Shown one piece after another: positions 3,561 to 59,345 of a DNA stretch of 64,000 bases; the first letter of the stretch is position 1, and every line of letters begins with the position of its first letter. This stretch comes from Dysidea avara. Its lineage: Eukaryota > Porifera > Demospongiae > Dictyoceratida > Dysideidae. A model generated the notes under the pieces. The model saw only the letters and a list, made by a program, of their open reading frames with translations. It ran no database searches and was not told where the DNA came from. The DNA lies in contig NC_089275.1 of assembly GCF_963678975.1 (NCBI RefSeq), positions 32,995,116 to 33,059,115 of the forward strand, written 5' to 3'. The translations under genes and the position numbers were made by a program.

Positions 3561-3566
3561 TTACAG

Positions 3567-30088: not shown

Positions 30089-30201
30089 GTATAGACTATC
30101 TAATCAAAAACACCCAAGCTGTAAAAAAAGGTGCGGCCCCCAAAAAGGCCATGGTGAAAAAAGATGTGAAATCCAAGGTGGCGGCCAAGAAATGGCTGTG
30201 A
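30089..30201 (+). CDS. Candidate terminal exon read into the foldback repeat
   Basis: After a TGTTACAG acceptor, 113 bases are open in phase 1 to a TGA at 30199-30201. They encode a lysine/alanine-rich tail (AVKKGAAPKKAMVKKDVKSK onward). All but the first ten bases lie in the left arm of the foldback at 30099. The same frame is open in the copy at 42480. Phase agrees with 29100-29168. It may be an exonised repeat, or the arm may descend from a captured gene piece, or it may be chance. Confidence 0.3.
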
Positions 30202-30422
30202 TGGTAGGTTAATGGTAAAAATTTTAATAATGACAATTCAGGTGAATTTTGTGCCACTTGGTCTTGGCACCAAATTCACCTGAATTGTCGTTATTAAAAT
30301 TTTTACCATTAACCTACCATCACAGCCATTTCTTGGCCGCCACCTTGGATTTCACATCTTTTTTCACCATGGCCTTTTTGGGGGCCGCACCTTTTTTTAC
30401 AGCTTGGGTGTTTTTGATTAGA
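30099..30422. repeat. Foldback with ~155-bp near-perfect arms
   Basis: Left arm from TCTAATCAAAAACACCC to about 30255 and right arm to GATTAGA at 30422 are almost exact complements, with a tiny loop. One of the few differences, AATAATGAC against AATAACGAC, is found in the same place in the copy at 42480. Confidence 0.9.
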
Positions 30423-30452
30423 TATCACTTCTTTTTGTATTTGTATACTGCA

Positions 30453-30478
30453 AAGCCGGCCTATGGCTGGCTTTGGGG
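30453..30478 (+). other. Hairpin tail followed by T-run
   Basis: AAAGCCGGCC-TAT-GGCTGGCTTT forms a 10-bp stem followed by GGGGCTTTTTTAAC. In copy 2 (42828-42858) bases differ but the stem is largely kept. Confidence 0.6.
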
Positions 30479-30630
30479 CTTTTTTAACCCATGTGTTTTT
30501 TATTTACCACAGGAAGAAGAAAAGAACTTATAGAAGATTTTTAATAGTTCAATTATTTTTGATTTTATTAGTAATTATACAAATTATATACATATATTTA
30601 TTACATGCCCATTATTCCCCACAGGATATT

Positions 30631-32475
30631 TTTTAGCAGCTGATCTCTCTACTGGATGCATGACTTAAAATATAGCTGAACTATATACAGGATGGTTTCT
30701 TTGTAGCTGAATTCTCTCCAAGGTGACCTCTTCTAGCTGATCTCTCTACAGGATGATTTGTTTCTAGCAGAACTCTCTACAGGTGAATTGTTTGCAGCTA
30801 AACTCTCTACATGGTGCTGTCTTTGTAGCTGAACTCTCTACATGATGGTTTCTTTGTAGCTGAACTCTCTACAAGGTAACTTCTTCTAGCTGATCCCTCT
30901 ACAGGGCGATTTGTTTGTTGTTGAATTCTCTAAACGGTAATTTGTTTGAGGCTGAACTCTCTACATGGTGGTTTCTTTGTAGCTGAACTCTCTACAAGGT
31001 GACTTTTTCCAGCTGAACTCTATACAGAGTGATTTGTTTGCAGCTGAACTCTCTACATGATGGTTTCTTTGTAGCTGAACTCTCTATAAGGTGCATGACC
31101 TCTTCTAGCTGAACTCCTTACATTGTGTCTAGTTTCTATAAGGTGACCTCTTCTAGCTGAACTCCTTACATTGTGTCTAGTTAATTTGTTTGTAGCTAAA
31201 CTCTCTATAAGGTGATTCGTTCTCTCTGCAGGTTGATTTGTTTGTAGCTGAACTCTCTAAAGGGTGATTTGCTTGTAGCTGAACTCCTTACATTGTGTCT
31301 AGTTTCTAGCTGATCTCTCTACAGGGTGATTTGTTTGTAGCTGATCTCTCTGCAGGTTGATTTGTTTGTAACTGAAGTCTCTACAGGGTGATTTGTTTCT
31401 AGCTGATCTCTCTACAGGGTGATTTTTTGTAGCTGATCTCTCTGCAAGTTGATTTGTTTGTAGTCGATCTCTCTACAGGGTAATCTGTTTGTAGCTGAAC
31501 TGTCTATAAGGTGATTTGTTTGTAGCTGATCTCTCTGCAGGTTGATTTGTTTTAGCTGAACTCTCTACAGGGTGATTTGTTTGTAGCTGATCTCTCTGCA
31601 GGTTGATTTGTTTGTAACTGAAGTCTCTACAGGGTGATTTGTTTCTAGCTGATCTCTCTACAGGGTGATTTTTTGTAGCTGACCTCTCTTCAGGGCAATT
31701 TGTTTCTAGCTGATCGCTCTACAGGTTGATTTGTTTGTAGCTGATATCTCAACAGGGTGTATTGCTTGTAGCTGAACTCCTTACATTGTGTCTAGTTTCT
31801 AGATGATCTCTCTACAGGGTGATTTGTTTGTAGTTGATCTCTCTACAAGTTGATTTGTGTGTAGCTGATCTCTCTGTGAGTTGATTTGTTTGTAGTCAAT
31901 CTCTCTACAGGGTAATTTGTTTGTAGCTGAACTGTCTATAAGGTGATTTGTTTGTAGCTGATCTCTCTGCAGGTTGATTTGTTTTAGCTGAACTCTCCAC
32001 AGGGTGATTTGTTTCTAGCTTATCTCTCTACAGGTTGATTTATGTGTAACTGATCTCTCTACAAGCTGATTTGTTTGTAGCTGATCTCTCTGCAGGTTGA
32101 TTTATTTCTAGCTGATTTCTCTACAAGTTGATTTGTTTGTTGCTGATCACTCTAAAGATTGATTTGTTTGTAGCTGAACTCTCTGCAAAGTGTTTTGTTT
32201 GTAGCTGATCTCTCTACAGGGTAATTTGTTTGTAGCTGAATTCTCTCCACAGTGACTTGTTTGTAGCTGAATTCTCTAGAGAGTGTAACCGAACTCTCTA
32301 CAGGGTGCATGACTTGTTTATAGCTGAACTCTCTTCAGTGTGACTTGTAATGTTCTGAATCACTACAGTGATATATTTGTAGCTGAACTCTCTATAGGGT
32401 GACTTGCTGTCTATAAGATTAACTGTTTGCAGTTGAACTCCCTACAGAATAACTTGTAATGTAATAGAATTCTAC
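30631..32475 (+). repeat. 31-bp satellite array, copy 1
   Basis: Tandem units of about 31 bp, for example GATTTGTTTGTAGCTGATCT followed by CTCTGCAGGTT, with AACTCTCTACA and ATCTCTCTACA alternatives. Around 60 units. Frames through it are not genes. Confidence 0.92.
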
Positions 32476-32489
32476 AATGGAGTAAATAA

Positions 32490-33314
32490 ATTAGCTGAAT
32501 GCTCTATTAGGGTGACTGTTCTATTAGAGTATCTCGATCTCGCATTTGTTACACGGAGTTGGTTTTCGGGTCATAACTCAGTGGTTTGTAATCCAATTCT
32601 TCTATACTACTGCAAGGACTTTCTATGAAGATTATTCCAGCTATATACCGATTTTCAGCTCATTGCTCTTAGCGGTTTGCCTAGTAGGCGTGAAAACTAA
32701 TACTTCTTTATTACTAAAAATCGATCGCGTAACTGTGACACAGGTTGGGTTTTGTGTCATATCTCCGTGGTCTTAATCTCGATTCCTTTCAAACCACCAA
32801 AAGGCACTCCTACGATGGTTACTCCATCTACATAGCAATTTTCAACTCTTTCCATGAAGCGGTTTACCCTGTAGGCGTGACAACAAATCGATCTTGTTTT
32901 ACGCGAATAATCGGTCATAACTCCTGAACCATTCATCGGATTTGCACCAACTTTGATGCTAGGATTCGCCGTTGGACTCCCTTTCTGTGTGCCAAATTTC
33001 AAGGTGATCGGAGTACGAGTTTGCGTTGTATAGCAATTTTTGCAAGTGTGCGAAAAGACGAAGAAAAAAAAACCAAGAAAAAAACGAACCTTTGGCCGCT
33101 CATATCTCGGAAATAGCTTGAGTGATTTCCTTCAAATTTGGAATGTAGACTCCCCTAGCTGGCGGGCAGCTCTGCAGCAAATTTGGTTTCAATCGGATAA
33201 GCTAGCACCGAGATACAAAAGTGTGAAAATGACGTTTTCTTTCTTCCTGTAAATATACTCACGGTGTGGCGCGCCGGTTTCTTGGGCCGCACGACACACT
33301 ACCGTGTGTCTTGA
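32490..33314 (+). repeat. Terminal module of composite element, copy 1
   Basis: About 825 bp, roughly 94-95% identical by eye to 47066-47897. It begins with GCTCTATTAGGGTGACTG and CTATTAGAGTATCTCGATC. It contains three or four loosely related sub-units that start CATAACTC/CATATCTC and end near GTAGGCGTGA or CAAATTTCAAGG. After an AscI-type GGCGCGCC site, it finishes with the terminal hairpin (33293-33310). Short frames occur on both strands and none is convincing as a gene. Confidence 0.85.
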
Positions 33315-33379
33315 TTATGTTTTAATATGTAACAGCCAACCACGTACATTGTTCCTGAGTGACATATCACAAATGGTTC

Positions 33380-33800
33380 TAGGGACCCGCCGATTATGCT
33401 CATAATTTTACCTATTATGCTATGCTGCACTGCTCAAAAATTTACCTATTATGCTTAAATATATGCTAAATACTTACCCATTATGCTCAAATTATGCCCA
33501 ATTATTTATGCTTCAGTTCCCATGCTCTAGTAATAATTTCCAATTTATGGATAAATAATAAGTGGCTGAAGCACAAACTTGTCAAAATGTATATCACAGA
33601 AAAGATCGATATACTCCAATAGAACAGTCAGTTATATGATTGTTCTATTAGAGTATATCGATATTTTTGTGATAGCTATTTTGATAAGCAAGAATTCATA
33701 CTATTACACAAATATTCTACCTATTATGCTAGCATTATGCTCAATGCTTTCAGACACCTATTATGCTCATAATTATGCCAGCATAATCGGCGGGTCCCTA
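33380..33800. mobile_element. hAT-type miniature element, exact 8-bp target duplication
   Basis: Ends TAGGGACCCGCCGATTATGC and GCATAATCGGCGGGTCCCTA are perfect inverted repeats. AATGGTTC flanks both sides (33372-33379 and 33801-33808). Many TATTATGCT words point inward from both ends. The centre has a palindromic pair of the CTATTAGAG motif ending in ATATCGAT. 421 bp, no transposase. Confidence 0.95.
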
Positions 33801-34252
33801 AATGGTTCCCAGCAGCAGCTGGCCAGAGACTGCAGTCAGATCATATATACCCATCAGACACTTGATCAGTTGTAGGGTCTCCACATATGAAAGTTAATAA
33901 TATTAAGTTAATTGTGTACATTCTGTGGTTTTAACCAAACATAATAATTATTAGTTTTCACTGTATAAAGCAACTACCAGTATTATGGTTAAGAGAAAAA
34001 TACAGTGTGCAATCTTTTTACTGCATTGTTGAATTGGATGATTGGAATAAATGTGAAGCTGTGCCCACTTAACTGCTAACCTTATATTATTAACCATTAT
34101 CAAGAATATACATAGCATGATAGCTTGGTGCTCACCGTAAGGCTCCTTCTGTATGTTGTCCAGTGCAACATGGCCTACATGATGGGTTAGTCTAGCTATA
34201 ATTCATTTTTCAAAGTTCTTTTAAATTTTTCGCTCTTCAAATATAATTACTT

Positions 34253-34497
34253 TGTGACTGGGACTGCAAAAACAGGGCAGGTGGGCACACAAAAAGTCTG
34301 CCTACTCTTTCAAATGTTTATTTTTCATAACTTTTTATGCCATTACACTATGACTATGCCTTTTTGCAACATTTAATTGGCTTTATAGTACAAGTTAAAG
34401 AATGCAAATAATTATCTATTCCAGTACTGAGATATTACCTGCTGTGTGTTGGGGTGTAGTTTGTACCACATGCCCCATGTTTGCAGGCCTGATCACA
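34253..34497. mobile_element. Short TGTGAC-family miniature element
   Basis: Left end TGTGACTGGGACTGCAAAAA, right end TTTGCAGGCCTGATCACA. 245 bp. Same terminal motif as 21762-22396 and 57099-57447. Confidence 0.65.
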
Positions 34498-34963
34498 TTT
34501 GCTGTGCAAAAATTTCTGTATTCAAAGAACCCACTATATATACACAGCATTGTTCTACAATTTGATCATCAATAGCTGGCTTGAATTGATTTTTTACTTG
34601 TGATATTGCCATATTTATTATGCTTTAAATTAGTGCACACAATGTCTCAAATAAATTGGTTTGATAAACTATAGCTAAGTATTTCTAATAACATTATACA
34701 TACAGTATAAAAACAGCAATAATACATGTAAATAGTATGTACATGATGGAAAATATGTTATAATTTTATATATAAATCCATGTGAAGAGTTTTTCTGTAT
34801 TCATGTTTGAGGTTTAATCTTTTACAATATGCTGGGATTCATGGAAACTGTTTCCTCCTGTTTGTGCAATTGTTAATCCATCTGGAACATTATCAGTGCT
34901 GCAGTTTTGACATAATATACAAGTATAACAGATTTGTATCACTGATGTAATATATACGTAATA
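34498..34963. other. Non-coding stretch
   Basis: AT-rich, no supported feature. Confidence 0.5.
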
Positions 34964-35332
34964 TCTAATCCAAAACAGCCAACCTGTAAAAAAGAGTGTA
35001 GTCTCCCAACACATAGGCTTTTAAAAAAATTGTTGACACTACAATATCATTGCAGCCATTTCTTGGCCGCAACCTTTGATATTACATCTTTTTCATACTA
35101 GCTTATTTTTGGAAGGCTGCACTATTTTCACAGTTTGGCTGTTTTGGATCTAAAGGAAATTGACTATGCTTTAAATCTACTGCAGCATCTAGTACACTGA
35201 GTTAAGCATGCAAGAGCTATTCTTCAAACAACATAGCTAGCTATATATGTTACCAGTGTACTGTTGTTAAGCCATGGTATAAGTGTTATGGCACGCAGCT
35301 CTTGACTGATTTTCAGCCTCAGTATTGCCATA
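34964..35332 (+). repeat. Decayed foldback-family repeat
   Basis: Starts TCTAATCCAAAACAGCC. A partial right arm (CAGTTTGGCTGTTTTGGAT) is still visible near 35130. The block matches 1456-1814 base for base over long stretches, including GTTAAGCATGCAAGAGC, and the match ends at GCCATA. Confidence 0.75.
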
Positions 35333-35967
35333 GGGAGAATTTTTTTGGGATCAGTATCATCTTAAATGAAGCCACACTTATACTATCATCATACTGTACA
35401 TACTGCTAAATACAGTTGAACTGTAACATGATGCTTTCTTACTGCACAACTCAGCTGTGCCTGACTGTTTTATATAGCCATGACTGCTCTATTAGAGTAC
35501 ATCGATCTTTACTAGGGGCATGGATTAAGGTTTCATTAAAATCAAAAAAATAATGCAGTTTTGACCTGCCTATATGGTACCTTTGCTATACCAATGCATA
35601 GCTGAGCTACATACCAACCAGCAGATATTGTGAAACAGCATTTTACATGCCATTCAAGAAACTCGTGTGATGAATAATGAGAATTGTACATGTAGTAAAC
35701 TTTTTGCATTAGAACTCATTAATATCTATTGTATCTTGATACGTAGTTTATCAACATTTGCAAGAAAATTCAACTAGTTTGCATTAGTGGGTTAGGTGGT
35801 AGGTGTGACAATAAATAATTAACTATCACTGACTGCTCTATTAGAGTATCGTGATTGTTATGTGAGATGAACAACTGACAGTAGTGGCTGACTGGTAAAG
35901 GGTTTGGACATGTAGGTATGGAGGTTCAAACTGTACACAGCTTCTTTTTCAACATTTTATTACTTCA
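35333..35967. other. Non-coding stretch with two CTCTATTAGAG motifs
   Basis: Motif copies near 35487 (followed by TACATCGATC) and 35839. No gene. Confidence 0.5.
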
Positions 35968-36948
35968 TGGTGACTGTTCTAATCAGTATCTCAATTACAT
36001 TTGGTTTTTGCTTTATATCTCCTTAGCTAATACTCTTAGTACTTTTACATTACAAAAGGTCTGTGTTATGATGGTCAACCTACCGGCAGACTTATATATT
36101 TCTGTAAGTAGTTTACCCTATAGGCATGACCAAAAATCACACTTGTAATTTTTGAAAATCACCTGTAACTTGGCACTACGCAATCTGTACACAAATTGAA
36201 AGATAAATGAGCTATATATAATGTACTCTTTATACCCTCAAACTTGGGGATCCTATGTATAAAACTTTTGTGAGTTATGGAGGTGTTGCAAAAAGATAAT
36301 GTATAGCAGAAGAAGGTAAAGAAAAATACATAGAACACTAGATAAAATTTGAAGGCACATATCTCAAGGATCATGCAGGGGCGGATCCAGGGGGGGGGGG
36401 GGGGGGGGGGGTTCAAAGGGATCCATGGAACCCCCCTTTAGAAATCTCTTTGAAAGAGCCTGTCTTACTCGAGATACTCTAATAGAGCAGTCAAAATCGA
36501 AATACTCTAATAGAGCAGTCACAGTATTCTTCAGAGGAGCAGTGTAGCAAGCTATGTATGTAGTTATAAATAAGGAAATATAGTTGGTCAGGGTATCTGT
36601 GGTGAGGGGCAGCTATTGTCCGCAGGTGATGACTTTTTTTTTTTGGTCTTTGATTTACAGCTAGGCTGAAGTTGTAATTCCAGAGTGGAACCCCCCTTTT
36701 AAAAAGTCTGGATCCGCCCCAGGGATGGCTGGACTGATTTGAAAGATGTCCCACTCCAAAGGAGGTTTCACAGAAAAATGGACTGAACCTCCCTTAGAGC
36801 TACTTCTGTTTAGCTATTACTGAGGAATAAATTCGTGAAAATCATGATTTCTTAATCGGTTCCTGTATAATACGCGCTTGTCTGTCCCACACTTAAACGT
36901 ATTTGTTTCCTTAACTGGCTGCAAGACACACTATCGTATGCCCTGATA
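35968..36948 (+). repeat. Old relic of the composite terminal module, interrupted by a miniature element
   Basis: Begins GGTGACTGTTCTAATCAGTA, parallel to GGTGACTGTTCTATTAGAGT in the intact modules. It contains GTTTACCCTATAGGCATGAC (compare GTTTACCCTGTAGGCGTGAC) and ends GACACACTATCGTATGCCCTGAT. The end is therefore shared with the two full copies, although the rest has diverged. A 347-bp insertion (36376-36722) splits it. Confidence 0.6.
36376..36722. mobile_element. GGGGCGGATCC miniature element with 22-G run
   Basis: Left CAGGGGCGGATCCAG and right CTGGATCCGCCCCAG are inverted. A G run of 22 (36390-36411) follows the left end and GGAACCCCCCTTT occurs near both ends. Elements with such ends are widespread in invertebrates and usually hAT-like. 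The 8-bp flanks (GGATCATG, GGATGGCT) agree only in part. Relic ends with the same start occur near 48395 and 62130. Confidence 0.75.
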
Positions 36949-38011
36949 TATACAATATATACGTATGTGTATGTATGTATGTATGTATGCAACATCTTGA
37001 ATTAACAAGATACATGCACTGCCTTAACAAGATAAACACCCTGTATACAGTACATATTTCATTAAGGCAGTGCGTATATCTTGTTAAAATTCCTGAGCCA
37101 GTGCAATATGTGATATATGCACACTGGCTTTCCTTTGATCTAAGGTTACAATTGGTACATATATTATAAAAAAAATTATCTAGTGATGCTTTTAGCTGAA
37201 ACCTCAGCAGTGTGCACTTACTTAATAAATCATTTTGTTCATTCAAAATTAGATGTACACATATACCTTGTGGCTAACTGCCAGCCTATTGTGCTTTTGC
37301 TTTTAATTTTACCTGTTATGCTATGCTACAGTGCAAAAATTTAATCTACTGTATTATGCTCAAAATCAATGCGTTATCACTCAAAAATGCTTGCTTTATG
37401 TATAATATATTTATCTGTAAGGAACTGTTGAGAGTACGTAATAATGACATTGCTTCCAATAGAAAAGTATATATTTGGCATTACCACATTGATATCCTCT
37501 AACAAAAATTAGCAAATCTAATAAAAATTACACTCTATTAAAGCCATCAACTATTTTAGAAACCTAGAGCTCTTTCTCTTCATACAATCCAATTCTGACT
37601 TCTGTCTTCAATGTGTGTATGTAAGAAGAAATGTGGATAAAGACAAACCCTAAATTCAGGGACTCATAAAAAATTAAATCCACACAAAAGCAGCCAAGCT
37701 ATGAAAAAAGGGTGTGGTCTTCAGATACTTGGGTCAAATAAGAAATCAAAGGTGGTGGCAAAGGAATTGCTATTAAAATAGTTACATTATTTATTTATGA
37801 TATCTGATTTCCAACCCCCATAGTTTATAGAAGAGTAGCTGCTTTACCCGTGCAAGGATTACAGCCATCATGGCATGTACTTAATTCCTTCTGACTAACA
37901 CAATGGTTAATCCAGACATTTGAAAATGGTGGTTCCACTCTGAGACATGGTAACCCAGCCTATTACACATATATTATAGTCTAGCTAGCTGGCTATGAGT
38001 AAAGTAAAATC
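36949..38011. other. Non-coding stretch with microsatellite and decayed repeats
   Basis: A GTAT microsatellite lies near 36964-36986. An inverted pair around TTAACAAGATA is seen at 37015 and 37085. TATTATGC-family remnants lie near 37290-37400. A half foldback (CAGCCAAGCTATGAAAAAAG) lies at about 37690. It is downstream of receptor gene 2. Confidence 0.45.
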
Positions 38012-38464
38012 TTACGTTTGATTAGTCTTCTTCATATAGCATCTCATGATGATTAGCAACACAGCTACTATTACTATAATTCCTATCACTCCTCCTATTG
38101 CTGCACTAACAATTGTTCCAAATGGTGGGTCATCACTACTTGATGACTGGTTGATTACAACACAGTCCCTTGACTCAAATGACTCAAGCATTGATGGACA
38201 GCTTGGATCAATATGTAGGGTGACTTGATTGACAGTCAATGATGTTTCAGATTTTACCCAGTAGTCTATCTCATTGATGGTATTCTCAGCACTGATATTT
38301 GATAGTATTTTTGCTCTATACACAACTGTGCCCTTAAAGTCTCCTTTTGATTGTCGACAACTAAATGCTGCATTAACAATGCTTAATTTACAGGAACATT
38401 CTTGCTTCAGTTTTCCCATTACAGCTAATTTTATGTCATGCAATTTCTTTATCTGGTTATCTTC
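38012..38464 (-). CDS. Receptor gene 2, last exon: juxtamembrane, transmembrane helix, tail
   Basis: A 453-base terminal exon in phase 0 after a TTTTATAG acceptor, encoding 150 residues. It begins EDNQIKKLHDIKLAVMGKLK. Cysteines (ECSCKL, AFSCRQ, DPSCPS, SRDCVV), the SSSSDD stalk and the GTIVSAAIGGVIGIIVIVAV helix follow gene 1. The tail RCYMKKTNQT differs most. Same length as the gene 1 exon, with many substitutions silent or conservative by eye, suggesting that both were kept as coding sequence for much of their history. Confidence 0.82.
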   Translation of the reverse strand, partial: EDNQIKKLHDIKLAVMGKLKQECSCKLSIVNAAFSCRQSKGDFKGTVVYRAKILSNISAENTINEIDYWVKSETSLTVNQVTLHIDPSCPSMLESFESRDCVVINQSSSSDDPPFGTIVSAAIGGVIGIIVIVAVLLIIMRCYMKKTNQT

Positions 38465-38532
38465 CTATAAAAGTTGCGGACATGATCATTATACACCACC
38501 TGGTTATGTAACACTGTAACATGTACGCTTAC

Positions 38533-38591
38533 TGTCCATCCAACACAGCTTTTAATAGGGTAGAGTCGTAATTGAAATAAGGCCGCATGAA
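38533..38591 (-). CDS. Receptor gene 2, linker exon
   Basis: A 59-base exon after CTGTGTTTAG, ending TGGACA|GTAAGC, phase 1 to 0. It encodes HAALFQLRLYPIKSCVGWT. It connects the FN3 half-exon (38650-38812, ending phase 1) to the transmembrane exon. Confidence 0.75.
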
Positions 38592-38649
38592 CTAAACACA
38601 GGAAAAAGTAACATTAAAGATCATACAATAACAAAGACATAAACCATAC

Positions 38650-38812
38650 ATGTAGTTGTAGTAACAGTTTCGCTGGTAACTCTAAGTCCCTTGATGATGA
38701 AAGCTGTGATGTAGATTGAGTATTTTACACCAGAGAGAAGGTTAGTCAGATTAGCAGAAGTGCCTGTGCTGTTGATAGATAGGACTTGGTTTTGATTATG
38801 GGCATAGTGAAT
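38650..38812 (-). CDS. Receptor gene 2, FN3 C-terminal half-exon
   Basis: A 163-base exon between a CTCTGTAG acceptor and an ACAT|GTATGG donor, phase 0 to 1. It reads IHYAHNQNQVLSINSTGTSA, then NLTNLLSGVKYSIYITAF and a VTSETVTTTT end. The Y-x-I-x-I/T strand after an L-x-x-G-V-x-Y motif is typical of strands E-G of FN3. It needs an N-terminal half-exon of phase 1 to 0. The nearest with the right phase is at 50545-50636; none was found between 38.8 and 48.8 kb. Confidence 0.72.
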
Positions 38813-39671
38813 CTACAGAGATCAACCACACTTGTATTAGTCTGTATTACAGGTATATACTACAAGTCACAGCCATGCTGTTATTCTGATCAGCTATTTA
38901 TACATGTACATGTAGTAGTATATTAAAAATGTTATTAAGTTTAAAATGAAGTAGTGAACAAAGCGACAATAAGTAGTGAAACAAGAGATATATGAATGAT
39001 GGTATTACAGCATAGCTCTGTGGGAAAATCCCAACAATGGCAGCTCATAACAAATATTTTGTTCAATGCCAAAGTAGGGAGTTTCCTACTGAGCGCAAAC
39101 AAAAGCTCAAGAAACTGATTTTGAAGATCAAAATTGGACTAAATCTTACCAGTAGATGCGGTCTCCTCACCTTTTTACTGTAAGGTATCAGTCAGCTATG
39201 TTGTAATACCATCATTCACCTCTTGTTTCACTATATTTTTATTGCTTGACAGCATCATGTCAAACAGTACAGTGGAACTGTTTAGTAGGAATCCCCGCGT
39301 GCCACCTAAAATGTCACAATCTCCATTGCGAATGAGATCACACGATAATTGTAGGTCATTACATACCTGGAAAAACTTGTGTATTCTAATTATTGCAACA
39401 CTAATTTTAAGTGGAACTGTTATAACATGTTGCTTTTTGTGTGGTTTATAAGTTGTATGAATAGTGAACCAGTGCTTGTTGTGTCTGTTCTGACGTTAAA
39501 ATTTTATGCTGCCTTTAAAGGTCATCCTAGAAACATCTTACACAATGAGAATCACCTTTATGGAATAATATTAGTCCATCTAATACCAAATACAGCATTA
39601 AAAACAAGAAAAAACTTACAGGCGCTTGGATATGGAATTTTAAAAAATCACTGAAGCTTGAATTTTTGTCT
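38813..39671. other. Gene 2 intron with a foldback-type repeat
   Basis: An inverted pair AGTAGTGAAACAAGAGATA (38972) and CACCTCTTGTTTCACTATAT (39217) flanks about 240 bases. It is related to the foldbacks at 40250, 51640 and 63595. No exon seen. Confidence 0.5.
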
Positions 39672-40445
39672 GACTGCCAGCCTGCCTTTCAGACCATAGT
39701 CGCAAGGCTGGAGGCCAAATGAAGCAGTGCATGCCCACCATTTTATGCCACAATGACAAACTCACAAGTGAGATGTGCCTTTTAGGGTTCCAACGAGTGT
39801 GTGGCCTCTGCTCCTTGTCTTTCCTTTTATCTTTAATCAGGCTGTCTTCATCCTTCTTCATGCAATGAAACTATATTGAAGCATTAATTTTCCCTATCAA
39901 CACTTTCCTTGAGCAGCACATTTAGATGCTGCAAACTTATTTAAGTGCTTACGCTCAATAGGTTCAATACCATGCCTATTAACGTGACCTTACCAGGTTG
40001 ATTAATAACAACTGAGCACCACCTGAGACCACATCTCTTAACAATCTATTTACTCGATCACAATGACACATCCTGTTATTATCAGTCTAGCTGTATTCAG
40101 AATGCTAGCACGATGAAAATATGCTACACCTCCTGGTAGATGAAAGGCTGACTCAAGATACTCTAATACAGCAGTCACCCTAATGAAACAGTCATGCGTG
40201 TATAGCTGTATGCTATAACAAAAAACCAAACAAACTAAAAATTATTATTAAGCAGGGATCCAAGCAATAAAATATAGTGCAACAAGGGATGAATCACGGT
40301 ATCACAGTATAGAACAAAATCACTATGATAATATGCCAATGTAGGGTTTTCCCATCAAGCTATGCTGTAAAACCATCATTCATCTCTTGCTTCACTACAT
40401 TTTATTGCTTGGATCTTTACTTCATTCTAAATCAACAATTTTTAA
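39672..40445 (+). repeat. Intron block duplicated at 51026-51850
   Basis: Both copies start near ACTGCCAGCCTGCCTTTCAG / ACTGCCTTCCAATTTGTCTG. They share CAATGGTCGCAATGCTGG-like sequence, GGTTCC-A-ACGAGTGTGTGG, CTTGTCTTTCCTTTT, GCAATGAAAC and a terminal foldback around GGGATCCAAGCAATAAAA. Same orientation, 11.3 kb apart, both in introns of gene 2. Lysine-rich minus-strand frames across both are unlikely to be genes, as each is interrupted shortly after. Confidence 0.7.
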
Positions 40446-42479
40446 TATACTATATAGTATATAATTATATATACATTACTGAGATAATTGATACAGAGTA
40501 TGAACCTGATAATGGAGTATTGGTAGGTTTAGTTCAGGATGATTCCAGTTTAGTGTAACGGTAGTTTCATCAACTGATAAAACTGTTAAATATATTGGAG
40601 TTTCAGCACCTACTGGACATTAACAGAATGATTACATATTTCATTGAAAGCAATTAATTCAAAATCAAAGCAGTACTTATAGCCTAAATATACATTTGGC
40701 TGATTTTGAGGTTTTTGGAGCTAACAGTGAAAATTTTATGCTTAAAACATTTAGACCTTCATTTACATTATTGTAATAAATTAGTACAAAAATTATTGGT
40801 AGATGGAGGTTATTAATTATTACAAAAATCATTGGAGTAGAGTTGATTTAATAGTTGGGTAAGGAGAATTCTAGGAAATGGGAGCAGGACAGGAATATGG
40901 GAAAGGTAACTACCAATGGAAAATGTCTGATACGTATATATAGTTATTTACCACTCTGCGTGGGCAGTTCAAAGGCACCGCCAGTGCCATAATTTGTATA
41001 TTGCACTGCTGCAGACCGCAGCGAGTGCATTATAACTTATAACGCACTGGTTGCTGTTTTGTAGACCACAACGAGTGCATTATAAGTTATAATGCACCGA
41101 CCGCAGTGCTATATACAGATATTGCACTGGCTGCGGTTTTGTGCAGCATAGCACAAGTGCCGGTGGCGAAGACCACTACGACACCTCACCTAATAGGTGG
41201 AAAGACACTACACAGATCACTCGAATTCTTTTATAGCCTGACATGTAAAGGTCGATTGTGGGCCATAACGTCACCAATACGTATAATGTTTACAAGCAGC
41301 CAATGGCGATCGAAAAACCCAACGCGGGTGGCCACAATTCTAGTCTACATATATATATAAACGTACTTATACACCTTACTAGTCTGGTGCCATCTTAGCC
41401 CAGATTAAACTGTAGTCCACTTCGACAATGACTCAATAAAACAAATATATTCTAAATAATACTAACCTTTACGTTCGATTGTGGTAACCAGTTTTGTCAT
41501 GCCACCGGATTCGAGTTTAGCCAGTGTGAATAGTAAGAATTAGACTAATATTGTTTAGTAGTTAGGTTTTGTTTACTTAAACCGTCTATTTAGCTGCTTT
41601 TTTTGCTCGAGAGAATCACTATGGCAATTAGTCTGGTGCTTAGTCTATATGGCACGCTGAGCACTACATGATGAGAGTGGAACAGCGAATGCAGGTTAGT
41701 GATATAACCCATAGCGTACTAGCTTTCAATATCTCAGGTGGCTGCAGTACTGCAGGGGGAACGTCATCGCAACGTCAGGCTTGGTTACCCACAATCGATG
41801 TTAGAAACCTGGCCTTTATAAGTGTTACAGCTGTCTTGTGAGACTCTCCCCACCTATTAGGTGAATGGTACATAACAGTTATACAATGTGCACTCGTGCT
41901 CTGCCTGTATAAACGCACTTGCCTTCGGGCCTGACGGCCCTCAGGCTCATGTGTTTATATCAGGCAGAGCACTCGTGGCCGTTGTATAACTATATAATCA
42001 TGCCAAAATAGAGCTAGATTTTAGATGTTTCTTTGCAGCATTGTTTGATTCTTTACTGCTAAAATCAGCCACTTATATAGCATTAAAATTCTCTAATAAA
42101 GCAGTTACAAGAAATTTTCTGTTAATTATTATCCCACTATGGAATTGCAGTTAATTTTGATGGAATAGCTGGTATAGATTAGGTATAATAGCTAAGTTGT
42201 CAACACTAAAACTATACTTCATGAATATTCAAAAGATTCACATTGCAATAACTCATAGTGCCTGCATATACAGTGTAAGTGTGGAAACCATGACAAAAGT
42301 CATATGATGGTGTATGTGGCAGTTGAAGTATAATGCTTGTCAGGCTGGAGTGGCTCAAGCTAGGGACACTATATGAACAGTCATAGTGCTGCTCCAGCCT
42401 GACAGTGCACTACTGCCCACACTGTCATAATTACTTTTATAATCCAGAAGTGTAGCTTCCCAAACCTCACATATATATA
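40446..42479. other. Gene 2 intron with foldback elements
   Basis: Includes a decayed CCGTATA element near 40680-40770 and a complex inverted region at about 40950-41170 (repeated GAGTGCATTATAACTTATAA units with CAGACCGCAGCGAG words). A foldback lies at 41878-41990, with ends GTTATACAATG / CGTTGTATAAC and a GCCTTCGGGC loop. No exon seen. Confidence 0.55.
41878..41990. mobile_element. Foldback element with GCCTTCGGGC loop
   Basis: Arms GTTATACAATG...GTGCTCTGCCTGTATAAACG and the complementary TTTATATCAGGCAGAGCAC...GTTGTATAAC surround CTTGCCTTCGGGCCTGACGG. The loop vocabulary matches 16442-16580. Confidence 0.75.
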
Positions 42480-42797
42480 TCTAATCCAAAACAGCCAAGC
42501 TGTAAAAAAGTGTGCGGCCCTCAGAAAGGCTATGGTGAAAAAAGATGTGAAATCCAAGGTGGCGGCCAAGAAATGGCTGTGATGGTAGGTTAATGGTAAA
42601 AATTTTAATAATGACAATTCAGGTAAATTTTGTGAAGCGGCACAAAAATTCACCTGAATTGTCGTTATTAAAATTTTTACCATTAACCTACCATCACAGC
42701 CATTTCTTGGCCGCCACCTTGGATTTCACATCTTTTTTCACCATAGCCTTTCTGAGGGCCGCACACTTTTTTTACAGCTTGGCTGTTTTGGATTAGA
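42480..42797. repeat. Foldback of composite element, copy 2
   Basis: Arms of about 148 bp from TCTAATCCAAAACAGCC to its complement ending GGATTAGA. The left arm keeps the frame AVKK...MVKKDVKSKVAAKKWL open to a TGA, as in copy 1. Confidence 0.9.
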
Positions 42798-43081
42798 TTT
42801 CATTTCTTTTTGTATTTGTATACCCCAAAGCCGGCCTATGGCCAGCTTTGGGACTTTTTTAACCTATGATTTTTTTTCTTTACTACAGGAAGACGAAAAG
42901 ATGAAGTAGATGTACTTTAAATATTTTATCAGTAAATGTACAAATTATATATATAATACATATGTGATCGGATTTGCGAAAAGGGGTCTTCCACACACAT
43001 CCAATTTACCAACTTTGACAATTGATAACTTCAGATTGGAAAGAGCTATTGCCTTGAAATTTGGACAGTGGTGATTTCTTT

Positions 43082-46000
43082 GCAGCTGAACTCTCTACAT
43101 GATAGTTTCTTTGTAGCTGAACTCTCTACAAGGTAATTTCTTCTAGCTGATCTCTCTACAGGGAGATTTTTTGTAGCTTAACTATCTACAAGGTAACTTC
43201 TTCTAGCTGATCTCTCTACAGGGTGATTTGTTTGTAGCTGAATTCTTTACAGGTGATTTGTTTGCAGCTGAGCTCTTTACAGAATGGTTTCTTTGTAGCT
43301 GAACTCTCTACAAAGTAACTTCTTCTAACTGATCTTTCTACAGGGTGATTTGTTTGTAGCTGAACTATCTACAAAGTAACTTCTTCTAGCTGATCTCTCT
43401 ACAGGGAGATTTGTTTGTAGCTGAACTCTCTACAGGTGATTTGTACGTAGCTGAATTCTGTACAGGTGATTTGTTTGTAGCTGAATTCTGTACAGGTGGT
43501 TTCTTTGTAGCTGAACTCTCTAAAAGGTAACTTCTTCTAACTGATCTTTCTACAGGGCAATTTGTTTCTGGCAGAATTTTCTACAGGGTGATTTCTTTGC
43601 AGCTGAACTCTCTACATGATGGTTTCTTTGTAGCTGAACACTCTACAAGGTAATTTCTTCTATCTGATCTCTCTACAGGGTGATTTGTTTGTAGCTGAAC
43701 TATCTACAAGGTAACTTCTTCTAGCTGATCTCTCTACAGGATGATTTGTTCGTAGCTGAATTCTGTACAGGTGATTTGTTTGCAGCTGAGCTCTTTACAG
43801 AATGGTTTCTTTGTAGCTGAACTCTCTACAAGGTAACTTTTCTAGCTGATGTCTCTACAAGGTAGCTAGTTTGTAGCTGAACTCTCTACATGGTGGTTTC
43901 TTTGTAACAGAACTTTCTACAAGGTGACTTCTTCTAGCTGATCTTTCAATAGGGTGATTTGTTTGTAGCTTCACTCTCTACAAGGTAACTTCTTCCAGCT
44001 GATCTCTCTACAGGGAGATTTGTTTGTAACTGAACTTTCTAAATGATGGTTTCTTTGTAGCTGAACTCTCTACAAGTTAACTTCTTCTAGCTGATCTCTC
44101 TGCAGGGTAATTTGTTTGTAGCTGAATTCTGTACAGGTGATTTGTTTGCAGTTGAGCTCTTTACAGAATGGTTTCTTTGTAGCTAAACTCTCTACAAGGT
44201 AACTTCTTCTAACTGATCTTTCTACAGGGCAATTTGTTTCTGGCAGAATTTTCTACAGGGTGATTTCTTTGCAGCTGAACTCTCTACATGGTGTTTTCTT
44301 TGTAGCTGAACTCTCTACAAGGTAACTTCTTCTAGCTGATCTCTCTACAGGGTGACTTGTTCGTAGCTGAACGATCTACAAGGTAACTTCTTCTAGCTGA
44401 TCTCTCTACAGGGAGATTTGTTTGTAGCTGAACTCTCTACAGGTGATTTGTTTGAAGCTGAACTCTCTAAATGATGGTTTCTTTGTAGCTGAACTCTCTA
44501 CAAGTTAACTTCTTCTAGCTGATCTCTCTACATGGTGATTTGTTTGTAGCTGAACTATCTACAAGGTAACTTCTTCTAACTGATCTTTCTACAGGGCAAT
44601 TTGTTCGTGGCAGAATTTTATACAGGGTGATTTCTTTGCAGCTGAACTCTCTACATGGTGGTTTCTTTGTTGCTGAACTCTCTACAAGGTAACTTCTTCT
44701 AGCTGATCTCTCTACAGGGTGATTTGTTTGTAGCTGAACGATCTACAAGGTAACTTCTTCTAGCTGATCTCTTTACAGGGAGATTTTTTTGTAGTTGAAC
44801 TCTCTACAGGTGATTTGTTTGAAGCTGAACTCTCTAAATGATGGTTTCTTTGTAGCTGAACTCTCTACAAGTTAACTTCTTCTAGCTGATCTCTCTACAT
44901 GGTGATTTGTTTGTAGCTGAACTATCTACAAGGTAACTTCTTCTAACTGATCTTTCTACAGGGCAATTTGTTCGTGGCAGAATTTTATACAGGGTGATTT
45001 CTTTGCAGCTGAATTCTCTACATGGTGGTTTCTTTGTAACTGAACTCTCTACAAGGTAACTTTTTCTAGCTCATCTTTCTACAGGGTGATTTATTTGTAG
45101 CTGAATTCTGTACAGGTGGTTTGTTTGCAGCTGAGCTCTTTAAAGAATGGTTTCTTTGTAGCTGAACTCTCTACAAGGTAACTTCTTCTAGCTGATGTCT
45201 CTACAATGTCACTAGTTTGTAGTTGAGCTCTCTACATGGTGGTTTTTTTGTAACTGAACTCTCTACAAGGTGACCTCTTCTAGCTGATCTTTCTACAGGG
45301 TGATTTGTTTGAAGCTGAACTCTCTACAAGGTAACTTCTTCTAGCTGATCTCTCTACAGGTAGATTTGTTTGTAGCTGAACTCTCTACATGATGGTTTCT
45401 TTGTAGTTGAACTCTCTCAAGGTAACTTCTTCTAGCTGATGTCTTTACAGGGTCACTAGTTTGTAGCTGAATTCTCTACATGGTGGTTTCTTTGTAACTG
45501 AACTCTCTACAAGGTAACTTTTTCTAGCTCATCTTTCTACAGGGTGATTTATTTGTAGCTGAATTCTGTACAGGTGGTTTGTTTGCAGCTGAGCTCTTTA
45601 AAGAATGGTTTCTTTGTAGCTGAACTCTCTACAAGGTAACTTCTTCTAGCTGATGTCTCTACAAGGTCACTAGTTTGTAGCTGAGCTCTCTACATGGCGG
45701 TTTCTTTGTAACTGAACTCTCTACAAGGTGACCTCTTCTAGCTGATCTTTCTACAGGGTGATTTGTTTGATACTGAACTCTCTACAAGGTAACTTCTTCT
45801 AGCTGATCTCTCTACAGGGAGATTTGTTTGTAGCTGAACTCTCTATAAGGTGATTTGTTTGTAGTTGATCTCTCTGCAGGTTGATTTGTTTGTAGCTGAA
45901 CTCTCTACAGGCTGATTTGTTTGTAGCCGATCTCTCTACAGGGTAATTTGTTTGTAGCTGAACTCTCTACAAGTTGATTTGTGTGTAGCTGATCTCTCTG

Positions 46001-47045
46001 CAGGTTGATTTGTTTGTAGCCGATCTCTCTACAGGGCAATTTGTTTGTAGCTGATCTCTCTACAGGGTGATTTTTTTGTAGCTGACCTCTCTTCAGGGTG
46101 ATTTGTTTCTAGCTGATCTCTCTACAGGGTGATTTTTTGTAGCTGACCTCTCTTCAGGGTGATTTGTTTCTAGCTGATTGCTCTACAGGTTGATTTGTTT
46201 GTAGATGAACTCTCTACAGGGTAATTTGCTTGTAGCTGAACTCCTTACTTTGTGTCTAGTTTGTAGCTGATCTCTCTACAGGGTGATTTGTTTGTAGCTG
46301 AACTCCTTACATTGTGTGTAGTTTCTAGCTGATCTCTCTACAGGGTGATTTGTTTGTAGCTGATCTGTCTACAAGTTGATTTGTGTGTATATAGATGATC
46401 TCTCTGCAGGTTGATTTGTTTGTAGCCGATCTCTCTACAGGTAATCTGTTTGTAGCTGAACTCTCTATAAGGTGATTTGTTTGTAGCTGATCTCTCTGCA
46501 GGTTGATTTGTTTTAGCTGAACTCTCTACAGGGTGATTGCTTGTAGCTGAACTCCTTACATTGTGTCTAGTTTCTAGCTGATGTCTCTACAGGGTGATTT
46601 TTTGTAGCTGAACTCTCTTCAGGGTGATTTGTTTCTAGCTGATCTCTCTACAGGTAGATTTGTGTTGATTTGTTCATTGCTGATCGCTCTAAAGGTAATT
46701 GATTTGTTGCAGTTGAACACCCTGCAAAGTGTTTTGTTTGTAGCTGATCACTCTAAAGGGTAATTTGTTTGTAGCTGAACTCTCTCCACAGTGACTTGTG
46801 TGTAGCAGAATTCTGTGTAACTGAATTCTCTAGAGAGTGACTTAATTGTAGCTGAATTCTCTACACAGTGCATGACTTGTTTATAGCTGAACTTTCTTCA
46901 GTGTGACTTGTAGTGTTCTGAATCTCTATAGTGGTATATTTGCTTAACTCTCCACATGGTGACTGTCTTCTTGCTGAACTGTCTATAAGATTAACTGTTT
47001 GCAGCTGAACTCCCTACAGAATAACTTGTGATGTAATAAAATTCT
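43082..47045 (+). repeat. 31-bp satellite array with higher-order periods, copy 2
   Basis: About 130 units of 30-31 bp. Between 44261 and 45000 a twelve-unit block recurs with period 367 bp (marker TGATTTCTTTGCAGCTGAA at 44261, 44628 and 44995). From about 45066 a fifteen-unit block recurs with period 458 bp (marker CTAGCTCATCTTTCTACAGG at 45066 and 45524). From 45850 on, units resemble the array of copy 1. Confidence 0.9.
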
Positions 47046-47065
47046 ATCATGGAGTAAATAAATTA

Positions 47066-47897
47066 GCCGAATGCTCTATTAGGGTGACTGTTCTATTAGA
47101 GTATCTCGATCTCGCATTTGCTACACGGAGTTCGCTTTCGAATCATAACTCAGTGGTTTGTAATCCGATTCTTCTGTACTACTGCAAGGACTTTCTATGA
47201 AGATTATTCCAGCTATACACCGATTTTCAGCTCATTGCTCTAAGCGGTTTGCCTAGTAGGCGTGAAAACTAATACTTTTTTATTCATAAAAATCGATCGC
47301 GTAATTGTGACACAGGTTGGGTTTTGTGTCATATCTCCGTGGTCTTTATCTCGATTCCTTTCAAACCACCAAAAGGCACTCCTACGATGGTTACTCCATC
47401 TACATAGCAATTTTCAACTCATTCCATGAAGCGGTTTACCCTGTAGGCGTGACAACAAATCGATCTTGTTTTACGCAAATAATCGGTCATAACTCCTGAA
47501 CCATTCATCGGAATTGTACCAAAGTTGATGCTAGGATTCGCCTTTGGACTCCCTTTCTGTGTGCCAAATTTCAAGGCGATCGGAGTACGCGTTTGCTTGT
47601 TATAGCAATTTTTGCAAGTGTGCGAAAAGACGAAGAAGAAGAAGAAAAAAAAACGAAGAAAAAAAAACGAAACTTTGGCAGCTCGTATCTCGGAAATGGC
47701 TGGAGCGATTTCCTTTAAATTTGGAATGTAGACTCCCTTGGCTGGCGGGCAAATGTGTAGCAAATTTGGTTCCAATCAGATAAGTGATCACCGAGATACA
47801 AAGGTGTGAAAATGACGTTTTCGTTCTTCCTGTCAATATACTCACGGTGTGGCGCGCCGGCTTCTTGGGCCGCACGACACACTACCGTGTGTCTTGA
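47066..47897 (+). repeat. Terminal module of composite element, copy 2
   Basis: Aligns throughout with 32490-33314, differing by scattered substitutions and a longer GAAGAAGAAG/AAAAAAA tract (47630-47672). Ends with GACACAC-TACC-GTGTGTC. Confidence 0.88.
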
Positions 47898-58239: not shown

Positions 58240-59345
58240 CTACACCAAAAGACCCAAGCTGTGAAAAAGGGTGCACATGGTCCCAAAAGAGCCAGGGTGG
58301 AATAAGTTATGAAAATCAAGGATGGAAACTAAAACTAAATTGGCTGCAATAATATTAATGCCTTATAAAATTGTGGAATCAACTGTCAATTTAGTTAACA
58401 CCCTTATTTTCATAATAATTTAAGTAACCTCTACCCCTCTGTTGATTTTTGTAGCAATCTAAAATCTCTATGATTACACCTGTGCGTTATAATCTCTGCA
58501 ATTTCTGCACACCATAAATATAATAAAAATAATAATACTAATAACTTTTAATGATAACATCATTCATTAAAAATGATGGCCATCTTTGGGGCTTCCTTTT
58601 TATTTATTTTTTACTGCAGCAATGGGAAAAAGTACAGAGGTTTATTGGTGGTCTATATATCTAGTTGAACTATTTTGTTTAACCCTGTACAGAGTTCGGC
58701 TACAAACTAGCCACCCTGTAGCGAACTCAGCTACAGCTATATGTTACAAGACACTCCAGCTATGTTTGTTACAAGTCACATCCTGTAGGGAGTTAAACTG
58801 CAACCTGGTCACCATGTAGAGAGTTCAACATGCTACAAGTCACTTTGTAGAGTGCTCAACTATGAACAAGTCTGACTCACCCTGTAAAGAGTTCAGCCAT
58901 ATAACAAATCACCCTGTAGAGAGTTCATGCTACATTACAAGTCACATGCAGTCCCGTATAGATACAACAAGTCACCATGTACACAGTTCAGCTATTTTAA
59001 AAAATCAACCTGTACAGTAGAGAGTTCATGTGATAATAATATTTTGCTATTTTGCTTTAATTATAAACAACAAAATAGTTCAAAGTAGACCACCAATAAC
59101 AAATACAAAATCTGCACTTTTCTGGCAATGACAAAAAGCAAAAAGAAGTGATATCTATATCAGAACAGTGAAGCTGTGAACAAAGGGAGGGTAAATAAAG
59201 TTGTGAAATCAAAGGTGTTAATGCCAATCATTTTAAATAGCAGCCATTTCTTGGCTGCCACCCTTGATTCCATACCTTTATTCATCCTGGCTTCTTTGGG
59301 GTTGCACCCTTTGTTCACAACTTGGGTATTTTGGTATAGATCATG
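58240..59345. repeat. Head-to-head relics of the composite element
   Basis: A plus-oriented half foldback (CCAAGCTGTGAAAAAGGGTG, about 58252) is followed by a tail-like ATGGCCATCTTTGGGGCTTC (58577). A block of satellite in reverse orientation (GTACAGAGTTCGGCTAC units, 58690-59035) comes next. A more complete foldback (59155-59338, GTGAAGCTGTGAACAAAGGG to CCCTTTGTTCACAACTTGGG) closes the region with its tail pointing left. Two elements appear to have inserted facing each other. Confidence 0.6.

Follow-up and report, generated by a model that had tools for sequence, protein, structure and literature searches.

A satellite-carrying, Helitron-like repeat in the sponge Dysidea avara has a 5' foldback whose loop is found in both orientations

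The window, a 64,000-nt stretch of contig NC_089275.1 in the Dysidea avara assembly GCF_963678975.1, contains two long composite repeats, copies A and B. They raise the question of whether a foldback, a satellite, and a terminal module lying side by side form one mobile element, and what kind of element that is. As the initial annotation had described, both copies present a foldback, a hairpin tail, a 31-bp satellite, and a module of ~830 bp in the same order (Table 1). Their ends are as sharp as it proposed and their flanks differ. The limits of both copies are nearly base-exact, those of copy A being TCTAATC at 30099 and CTTGA at 33314, and BLAST similarity between the copies ends at the element ends, 30090-30525 pairing with 42472-42901 on the left and 32441-33327 with 47013-47908 on the right. 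The 30-33 and 42-48 kb regions therefore do not make up one segmental duplication reaching into the flanks, which are unrelated in sequence. Allowing up to three mismatches, the 22-bp 3' end occurs twice in the window and never in 100 shuffles. Solo relics had been claimed for each part, which holds only in part. Foldback and satellite relics are present in the window; of the module, ~28 bp near its start and one weak 36-bp match are all that was found elsewhere in the window, and no module match was found at the third, older relic.

Table 1. Features of copies A and B and of an older relic in the window (^ marks an element boundary)
Feature	Position	Strand	Details
Copy A, whole element	30099..33314	+	A^TCTAATC ... 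TTGA^T; 3,216 nt
Copy A, 5' foldback	30099..30422	+	324 nt, arms ~155 nt
Copy A, 5' subterminal inverted repeat, 9 bp	30131..30139	+	GTGCGGCCC
Copy A, foldback loop	30251..30270	+	Orientation F, GTGCCACTTGGTCTTGGCAC
Copy A, tail	30423..30530	+	Short hairpin AAAGCCGGCCTATGGCTGGCTTT and T run
Copy A, 31-bp satellite array	30621..32447	+	
Copy A, 3' module, ~830 bp	32486..33314	+	Class A; start approximate
Copy A, 3' subterminal inverted repeat	33284..33292	+	GGGCCGCAC
Copy A, 3' terminal hairpin	33293..33310	+	GACACACTACCGTGTGTC; 4 nt before end
Copy B, whole element	42480..47897	+	5,418 nt; class C left part, class A right part
Copy B, 5' foldback	42480..42797	+	
Copy B, foldback loop, short type	42632..42643	+	Orientation R, GTGAAGCGGCAC
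Copy B, 31-bp satellite array	43065..47019	+	
Copy B, lineage switch inside satellite	45728..45805	+	Approximate interval; class C matches left, class A right
Copy B, 3' module, ~830 bp	47068..47897	+	Class A; start approximate
Copy B, 3' terminal hairpin	47876..47893	+	
Third, older relic	58682..59341	-	Foldback, tail, satellite in same order

The same arrangement recurs throughout the 551-Mb genome. Exact matches to the 23-bp 3' terminus number 6,201, against none for the reversed control. At 16 of the 20 first-listed termini, foldback, satellite, and module are all present in order; two more (L029, L032) hold a partial layout with the order unchanged, L029 having foldback and module without satellite (1/20 loci), and the foldback is absent from the remaining two (L022, L034). 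Among 36 termini checked for an exact foldback arm within 7 kb, 28 have one upstream and four have one downstream, chance giving about 12% per side; exact arm ends number 14,152 genome-wide. Independent spread of the parts is rejected by the fixed order, judged from the 20 opened termini and the 36 checked for a nearby arm. Of the two outcomes that the initial annotation named as refuting its view, random order of the parts and longer shared flanks, neither appeared. The proposal that one mobile element disperses the satellite is supported. The array lies between the two ends, and the element is present in thousands of copies. We collected 18 full copies, a sample that leans young, 16 having been located via the exact terminus.

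We then asked which known elements these ends resemble. Every one of the 18 full copies starts with TCTAATC and is preceded by A. The last four bases at the 3' end are TTGA, and the base after CTTGA is T in 6,201 cases versus A, C, or G in 88 (6,289 in total), placing the insertion between A and T (A^T). At the one empty site examined, that of a nested copy (L033), the joined flanks align gap-free at ...AAGTCTGA^TT... to four of four relatives, with no target duplication. The terminal hairpin stands 4 nt before the 3' end in both window copies, and 17 of the 18 full copies carry a subterminal inverted repeat of 9 bp, set back 32-34 nt from the 5' end; it is weakly significant (2-13 of 1,000 shuffles gave one as long in those 17). 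The earlier view that the ends are partly Helitron-like but not CTRR thus agrees with what we find: canonical Helitrons share the 5' TC, the A-T insertion, and the lack of duplication seen at one empty site, but the 3' CTRR is missing and the hairpin is not 10-12 nt before the end. Excerpts on canonical Helitrons and Helraiser likewise describe a 5'-TC, A/T insertion without target site duplication (TSD), and a 3' hairpin end signal, but with a CTRR end, a hairpin about 11 nt upstream, and no long 5' foldback in the text excerpted (PMC4778049, PMC5876387). According to the same excerpts, Helraiser donors without the hairpin or the right end produce some insertions that end in CTTG before T (PMC4778049, PMC5876387). 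Helitron2/FoHeli elements of Fusarium, in the excerpted account, also have non-canonical ends; they show an asymmetric inverted repeat, some with a hairpin at either end, and include composite elements with repeated 5' ends. They differ in ending with ATTTT or CTCCTGT and in a 5' hairpin of a few bp, and a satellite is not described there (PMC5148889). What our element offers for comparison is the 5' foldback, the 3' hairpin, and the weakly significant 9-bp repeat. Because it ends in TTGA rather than CTRR and inserts at A^T rather than T^T, we read the element as Helitron-like but neither canonical nor a HINE. Probably it is a non-autonomous, Helitron-like (HUH/rolling-circle) element whose foldback is recopied as a hairpin and whose satellite is cargo.

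One line of evidence for such recopying comes from the foldback arms. The outer ends of both arms bear A^TCTAATC on opposite strands; in copy A, the right arm ends in GATTAGA^T, which complements the start of the element. Across the 18 full copies (112 nt per arm), arms of one copy differ at 11 of 1,992 positions (0.55%), versus 4.2% between copies. Informative arm sites pair within the copy in 603 cases, by same arm in none, and crosswise in one. Such concerted arms, almost identical within a copy and differing between copies, look like a new feature. In relic foldbacks the arms have diverged by up to 26% (23/87), in a set of 30 that counts one copy twice (L038_4686 and L039_9644), includes one member without comparable sites (W_1455), and bases three window relics on 38-41 sites. 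It counts against such recopying that some foldbacks with readable loops already have arms 7-9% apart (L048, 8/116; L061, 10/116).

The loop between the arms occurs in two orientations, F and R, at about 1:1, which also looks new; the initial annotation had noted neither this nor the concerted arms. The full copies comprise 10 F and 8 R, and 19 further foldbacks, hand-picked since both arm ends matched exactly and read by eye, comprise 7 F, 10 R, and 2 without a loop. Genome-wide, the long loop is found as 1,854 F versus 1,970 R (p=0.063) and the short loop as 744 F versus 801 R, a near-even split in both types over 5,369 matched loops. No orientation was assigned, the loop being of another type or unreadable, in L029, L036 at 540, L024 at 3370, L032 at 361, L028 at 9319, and L026 at about 9670. 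On a weak tree of 20 foldbacks, orientation changes seven times, with a mean of 6.8-6.9 for shuffled labels (354/500 as low), and the tree forces only two changes on supported branches; there is no visible clustering of orientation by kinship. The shorter hairpins hardly flip. The 3' hairpin is flipped in 13 of 6,214 cases (6,201 in standard orientation), and the tail hairpin is inverted in 0 of 29 readable among 37. A bubble beside the loop takes the commoner pairing in 8 of 11 long-loop copies, an incomplete linkage; the twelfth such copy, L038, was left out because its bubble is readable neither way.

Taken together, the concerted arms, the ~1:1 loop, and the rarely flipped 3' hairpin suggest that transposition includes a hairpin-transfer step like that of parvoviruses. 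In this scheme, a Rep-helicase provided in trans would nick A^TCTAATC on the top strand, unwind as far as the 3' hairpin, and join the strand to a target between A and T. During this cycle the foldback would be opened as a hairpin and recopied. A nick at either outer end, then hairpin transfer or strand exchange, would let one arm template the other, and the loop would emerge either way round. Our tentative and more specific proposal, to which we give less than even odds, is a eukaryotic rolling-circle transposon with a rolling-hairpin step, in which a Rep-type enzyme would nick either base of the ~320-nt 5' palindrome, remaking one arm from the other and randomising the loop at each transposition. 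The Rep proteins of parvoviruses such as AAV are of the HUH class. Two parvovirus-type traits are seen here, a palindrome in both orientations and arms alike within a copy; of a possible nicking site at its base, the symmetric A^TCTAATC sequences are what can be seen. The excerpted description of parvovirus/AAV palindromes includes a palindromic origin, two orientations (flip and flop), and Rep nicking, but the viral genome concerned is linear ssDNA and carries a palindrome at each end; the likeness is one of behaviour, and we claim no kinship (PMC1131931).

Thousands of copies seem to preserve a record of how arms were templated and loops inverted, a natural readout of a possible hairpin intermediate. 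To our knowledge, the start and completion of Helitron copying are not fully settled, and such a readout makes the question of a hairpin intermediate testable. Should the two arms be equal when the element inserts, the divergence between them would give the date of that insertion, much as LTRs are used to date retrotransposons. A rolling-hairpin step, if true, would link Helitrons mechanically to parvovirus flip-flop replication and give a built-in clock for insertion age.

Inverted repeats in general recombine and convert, and both flips and identical arms might arise, independent of transposition, where a Helitron-like element already occupies a chromosomal site and its arms recombine with each other (resolution of a cruciform, inversion together with gene conversion). 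We regard this as rather unlikely, but two observations speak for it: the timing of the flips is not readable from the tree, and the partial linkage of loop and bubble is what crossovers at different points are expected to leave. The diverged arms of relics, however, indicate no continuing conversion at dead sites, and the element's shorter hairpins hardly flip, though arm length could explain this. Source copies on the chromosome, and not a transposition intermediate, could also be where homogenisation and inversion take place.

The layout itself had been thought to match nothing known, which does not hold, since satellite-carrying non-autonomous Helentrons/HINEs are published, and their excerpted descriptions place a satellite array in the middle, inverted repeats in subterminal position, and a palindrome at the 3' end (PMC7492417, PMC4067079). 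The element might then be a true HINE, a non-autonomous Helentron of the Cg_HINE/DINE-1 kind (PMC7492417, PMC4067079). It has the central tandem repeats of that group (in the 18 full copies; L029 lacks satellite); a 3' palindrome and the 9-bp subterminal inverted repeat of 17/18 copies also speak for this reading, but their positions depart from the definition. Cg_HINE of the Pacific oyster is, as excerpted, a dispersed, non-autonomous rolling-circle type with a central satellite-like array, an inverted subterminal repeat, a 3' palindrome, and no TSD; unlike our element, it has T-rich/TT targets, an 11-12 bp subterminal inverted repeat, and short conserved flanks, and a ~320-nt 5' foldback and two-way loop are not described in that text (PMC7492417). 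The comparison here is one of layout. DINE-1/HINE elements, in the excerpts, are asymmetric and non-autonomous, with subterminal inverted repeats, a 3' palindrome, sometimes tandem repeats, and no TSD, but they prefer TT targets, place repeat and palindrome differently, and are described there without a long foldback (PMC4067079). We consider a true HINE improbable. The TT/T-rich insertion of that group is absent, A^T being used instead of T^T; the subterminal repeat and palindrome lie at 32-34 and 4 nt, against 2-4 and 8-35 nt in the mite HINEs as excerpted; and the published definition, in these excerpts, does not include a foldback of ~320 nt. Tetris of Drosophila virilis offers another likeness, a foldback element supplying satellite repeats, but its terminal inverted repeats hold the 220-bp tandem repeats and asymmetric Helitron-like ends are not described in the excerpt (PMC4079207).

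Palindromic as it is, and with pieces elsewhere in the window, the foldback might instead be a separate cut-and-paste MITE that by chance borders a satellite-bearing repeat on its left. We reject this as the main reading and give it very little credence: the foldback is the left end of the whole element at 16 of the 20 loci reached through their 3' end, its right end continues into the conserved tail in most foldbacks read, and no target duplication surrounds the whole nested element of L033. Long hairpins are hard to sequence, but that the two orientations are assembly or sequencing artefacts is the least credible reading of all, given 5,369 loops split near-evenly in both loop types and arms bearing copy-specific substitutions.

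The preferred reading of a non-autonomous, Helitron-like element implies a Rep supplied in trans. Genome-wide, 150 of 230 candidates are scored matches to Helitron Rep, many in long open frames. No Rep-bearing element with these ends was seen in the five of 150 Rep loci partly read, at four of which the 4-6 kb examined downstream may stop short of the end (L044-L046 are 4-kb pieces downstream of Rep matches). At the two loci where a 3' end could be proposed, that end reads CTAG. L042 has an open Helitron frame of the Rep-OTU-PIF1 type; L043 lies downstream of a different Rep match, with a UCH domain at its end and a helicase match below the curated cut-off. For a 124-aa reverse frame of the 3' module, Pfam gave no match at E 0.001, searches of the window for Rfam families (gathering scores) and tRNAs gave no match, and exact pattern scans of viral contigs gave 0. 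A bacterial MAG contig has one 18-mer match, and its likeness is confined to ~32 bp at the 3' end (88%).

The satellite array ranges from 697 to 4,011 nt among the 18 full copies, and copies A and B had been thought to differ mainly in its length (1.8 kb in A, 4.0 kb in B). They do not, as the left 3.3 kb of copy B comes from another lineage. From 3328 to 5421 (right part), copy B is 98.8% collinear with L037; further left, its 18-mers are best matched by class C copies. By these matches, copy B is a chimera in which two lineages meet within the satellite, which looks new, and the lineage switch rules out simple satellite expansion as the A/B difference. As cargo of varying length, the satellite would let different lineages exchange ends; the exchange is seen in copy B, with its breakpoint within the array, and we infer its route. 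Two points thus bear on how satellites spread: one mobile element carries this satellite to thousands of places, and the satellite is a place where element ends get swapped. Even so, satellite has been gained or lost between copies that are otherwise nearly identical.

Copies A and B of the element, the putative non-autonomous Helitron-like repeat of the window, both begin with a foldback (318-324 nt) and continue with a tail bearing a short hairpin; the 31-bp satellite follows, and the last part is a ~830-bp module whose end reads GACACACTACCGTGTGTC-TTGA. Their end points lie where sequence similarity stops in a masked self-comparison of the window. Genome-wide (550.8 Mb, 108 contigs), the 23-bp terminus, which takes in the T after the end, has 6,201 exact copies and its reversed control none; the 31-nt foldback end has 14,152 matches, an intact foldback contributing two. 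We opened 10-kb loci (L022-L041) at the first 20 listed termini, all less than 2.1 Mb from the start of contig C1, a sample that is not random and is biased to young copies because it was picked via the exact terminus. Foldback, satellite and module lie in order at 16 of the 20, confirming the shared layout proposed in the initial annotation. L029 and L032 are partial elements with the same order, the former without satellite, the latter with half a foldback and a shortened module; L022 and L034 have no foldback: L022 is a 46-bp 3' end by itself, and L034 consists of module pieces. Within the first 3.8 Mb, an exact foldback arm lies at most 7 kb upstream of 28/36 termini and downstream of 4/36, with ~12% expected per side. 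Together with copies A and B, the 16 loci give 18 full copies of 2,092-5,459 nt (mean 3,976 nt), of which the satellite takes up 697-4,011 nt and the remainder 1,291-1,680 nt. If every one of the 6,201 termini had a mean-length copy, the family would occupy 24.7 Mb, or 4.5% of the genome; extrapolating from a full copy at four in five termini gives ~20 Mb.

The 5' end reads A|TCTAATC in all 18 full copies, the flanking A having been no criterion in finding them. The base after CTTGA is T in 6,201 cases genome-wide and another base in 88 (98.6% T). At L033, one copy is nested in the module of another, and its flanks, once joined, align gap-free to four uninterrupted relatives (L023, L025, L027 and L035) across the empty-site junction ...AAGTCTGA^TT..., with one mismatch beside the junction in L027. 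The A^T target, 5' TC, lack of duplication, 3' hairpin and asymmetric ends are Helitron behavior. The last four bases, however, are TTGA, whereas the canonical Helitron 3' end is CTRR, and the hairpin lies just 4 nt from the end, another departure from the canonical form. Seventeen of the 18 copies, all but L035, have an inverted repeat of 9 bp, GTGCGGCCC internal to the 5' end and GGGCCGCAC ahead of the 3' hairpin; one as long arises in 2-13 of 1,000 shuffles for those 17, which are mutually related and therefore do not amount to 17 independent tests. The repeat is reminiscent of those found subterminally in Helentrons and Helitron2, though at different positions. The element works like a Helitron, yet falls outside the canonical Helitron and HINE definitions on points tested. 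In L032 one copy is inserted head-to-tail a few bp behind the 3' end of another, and the nested copy of L033 leaves two 3' ends in tandem. The solo 3' end of L022 lies within an (AT)n run and is perhaps a 5'-truncated insertion.

The short loop at the tip of the foldback is asymmetric, so its direction (F or R) can be read. Among the 18 full copies, which carry two loop types, ten are F and eight R. In 19 further foldbacks, read by eye from the loop sequences since automatic labels left some undecided, we found seven F, ten R and two with the center deleted. Genome-wide patterns, in which a spacer ties loop to tail and direction is therefore relative to the element, gave 1,854 F and 1,970 R for the long loop type (binomial p=0.063) and 744 F and 801 R for the short, a slight R excess in both; reversed controls gave 0. 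In a 20-foldback tree built without the loop columns, orientation changes seven times, against a shuffled-label mean of 6.8-6.9, and shuffled labels went as low as seven in 354/500. The tree is weak (2/17 inner branches starred), and its well-supported branches alone force two changes. As controls, the 3' hairpin is flipped in 13 cases genome-wide, one of which coincides in part with a normal terminus listed for the opposite strand, versus 6,201 unflipped, and the tail hairpin is inverted in none of 29 readable cases among 37 foldbacks. The shorter length of these two hairpins could possibly account for their near-absent flipping.

The foldback strand forms a near-perfect hairpin with arms of ~155 nt in the four copies folded. 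Over 112 nt per arm in the 18 copies, the arms of one copy differ at 11/1,992 sites, while arms of different copies differ at 4.1-4.2%. Informative sites, summed over all copy pairs such that a single change is counted repeatedly, pair both arms of one copy in 603 cases, like arms in 0 and crossed arms in 1, indicating that both arms change together. In older relics, the arms have diverged, by 6-8% in L032 (3069) and L029 and by 13-26% in another six, with just 38-41 sites compared in three of them; arm equality is therefore not maintained at dead sites. The 19 further foldbacks, selected for exact arm ends, have arms differing at 0-10 of ~116 sites, or at 17-18 of 97-99 sites in the two that lost their center.

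The right arm ends, with the following T, in GATTAGA|T in 20/20 foldbacks. The 5' start A|TCTAATC is complementary to this, placing the same presumed nick site at both hairpin bases on opposite strands. The Helraiser transposase is reported to cut its left end in vitro on the bottom strand, at an internal AT (PMC4778049). By inference, the enzyme can open the foldback from either base; the hairpin would then be recopied, one arm templating the other, and the loop could emerge in either direction. The terminal palindromes of AAV have flip and flop forms and are resolved when the terminal repeat is nicked and copied (PMC1131931), a likeness in behavior with no kinship meant. The main rival is arm-to-arm recombination within the chromosome. 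A small bubble adjoining the loop shows incomplete linkage with the direction of the loop (commoner pairing in 8 of the 11 scorable among 12 long-loop copies), as could result from crossovers at different points. The diverged relic arms argue against continuing chromosomal recombination, yet not against recombination restricted to young copies.

Satellite monomers are spaced mostly 30-31 nt apart and are ~64-76% alike within one copy and 71% between copies; close relatives share long collinear blocks broken by gains and losses. The 3' modules fall into three classes, A, B and C, with A and C 71-75% alike. Copy B joins two of them: its left end is class C-like (99% to L023, L024 and L027) and its module class A (98-99% to L037 and L041). 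Left of the switch, 18-mer matches per 250-nt window are 66-96% for class C, 4-66% for class A and 40-69% for class B; right of it, the sequence is 98.8% collinear with L037 over ~2,090 nt. As the switch lies inside the satellite, the array is, in copy B, a joint between lineages. The initial annotation had described the satellite as expandable; its length does vary, but expansion does not explain the difference between copies A and B. Between tail and satellite, copy B also has a piece that matches a repeat of ~244 bp found at L042, whose 26-bp inverted ends read ATATGTGACCGGATTTGCGAAAAGGG.

Satellite-bearing non-autonomous Helentrons are described from oyster (PMC7492417) and the wider HINE/DINE-1 group (PMC4067079), and Tetris connects foldbacks with satellites (PMC4079207). 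Within the accessible portions of the literature on Helitrons and foldback elements, and of that on satellites or hairpins in Helitrons, we recognized no account of a two-way loop or arm conversion, which is not proof of absence. The flip-flop foldback is what the element adds to known satellite-bearing Helitron-like repeats.

For an autonomous partner, 150 of 230 candidate Helitron Rep matches in the genome were scored, many in long open frames. The ends of the element were not seen in five partly read Rep loci (L042-L046; for four of them, coverage was just 4-6 kb on the downstream side of the Rep match), with 6 mismatches allowed in the 3' terminus. The protein encoded at L042 is 1,613 aa long and combines OTU, Rep and PIF1 domains; for this locus we propose the canonical ...CACTAG|T as its 3' end; L044 also has a candidate CTAG 3' end. 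In L043, where the helicase match scores below the curated cut-off, a frame downstream of the Rep match has a terminal UCH (ubiquitin hydrolase) peptidase domain, possibly captured.

The neighboring genes of the element include fn3 and IgGFc-binding ones, which suggest an animal host, possibly a sponge. The paired IgGFc-binding-domain frames with a similar frame pair are a local gene family. A ~28-bp motif from the start of the 3' module, TGACTGYTCTATTAGAGTATCTCGATCT, stands alone at 16 other places in the window, on both strands and occasionally in inverted or direct pairs; it may mark one end of a different dispersed repeat.

Positions of features in the window and in the opened loci; coordinates in L026, L029, L032-L034 and L038-L041 are on the reverse complement of the locus
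Feature	Sequence	Position	Strand	Remark
Copy A	window	30099-33314		
Copy B	window	42480-47897		
Lineage switch in copy B	window	near 45,730-45,805		
Match to ~244-bp repeat	window	42963-43075		
~244-bp repeat	L042	6875-7118		
Head-to-tail copies	L032	3030-3110		
Nested copy	L033	8499-9237		
Solo 3' end	L022	8455-8500		
Frame with UCH domain	L043	1-2364		
TGACTGYTCTATTAGAGTATCTCGATCT motif	window	16628, 26586, 33603-33662, 35481, 35830, 36469-36522		
TGACTGYTCTATTAGAGTATCTCGATCT motif, remaining sites	window	40153, 48102, 51525, 53419-53499, 53761-53835, 62455		
IgGFc-binding-domain frames	window	7636-9021 and 54654-55973	minus	DNA 88.8% identical over 1,325 bp
Similar frame pair	window	6134-6586 and 38012-38464		
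Endonuclease-reverse transcriptase relic	window	2743-3111		PF14529, below curated cut-off
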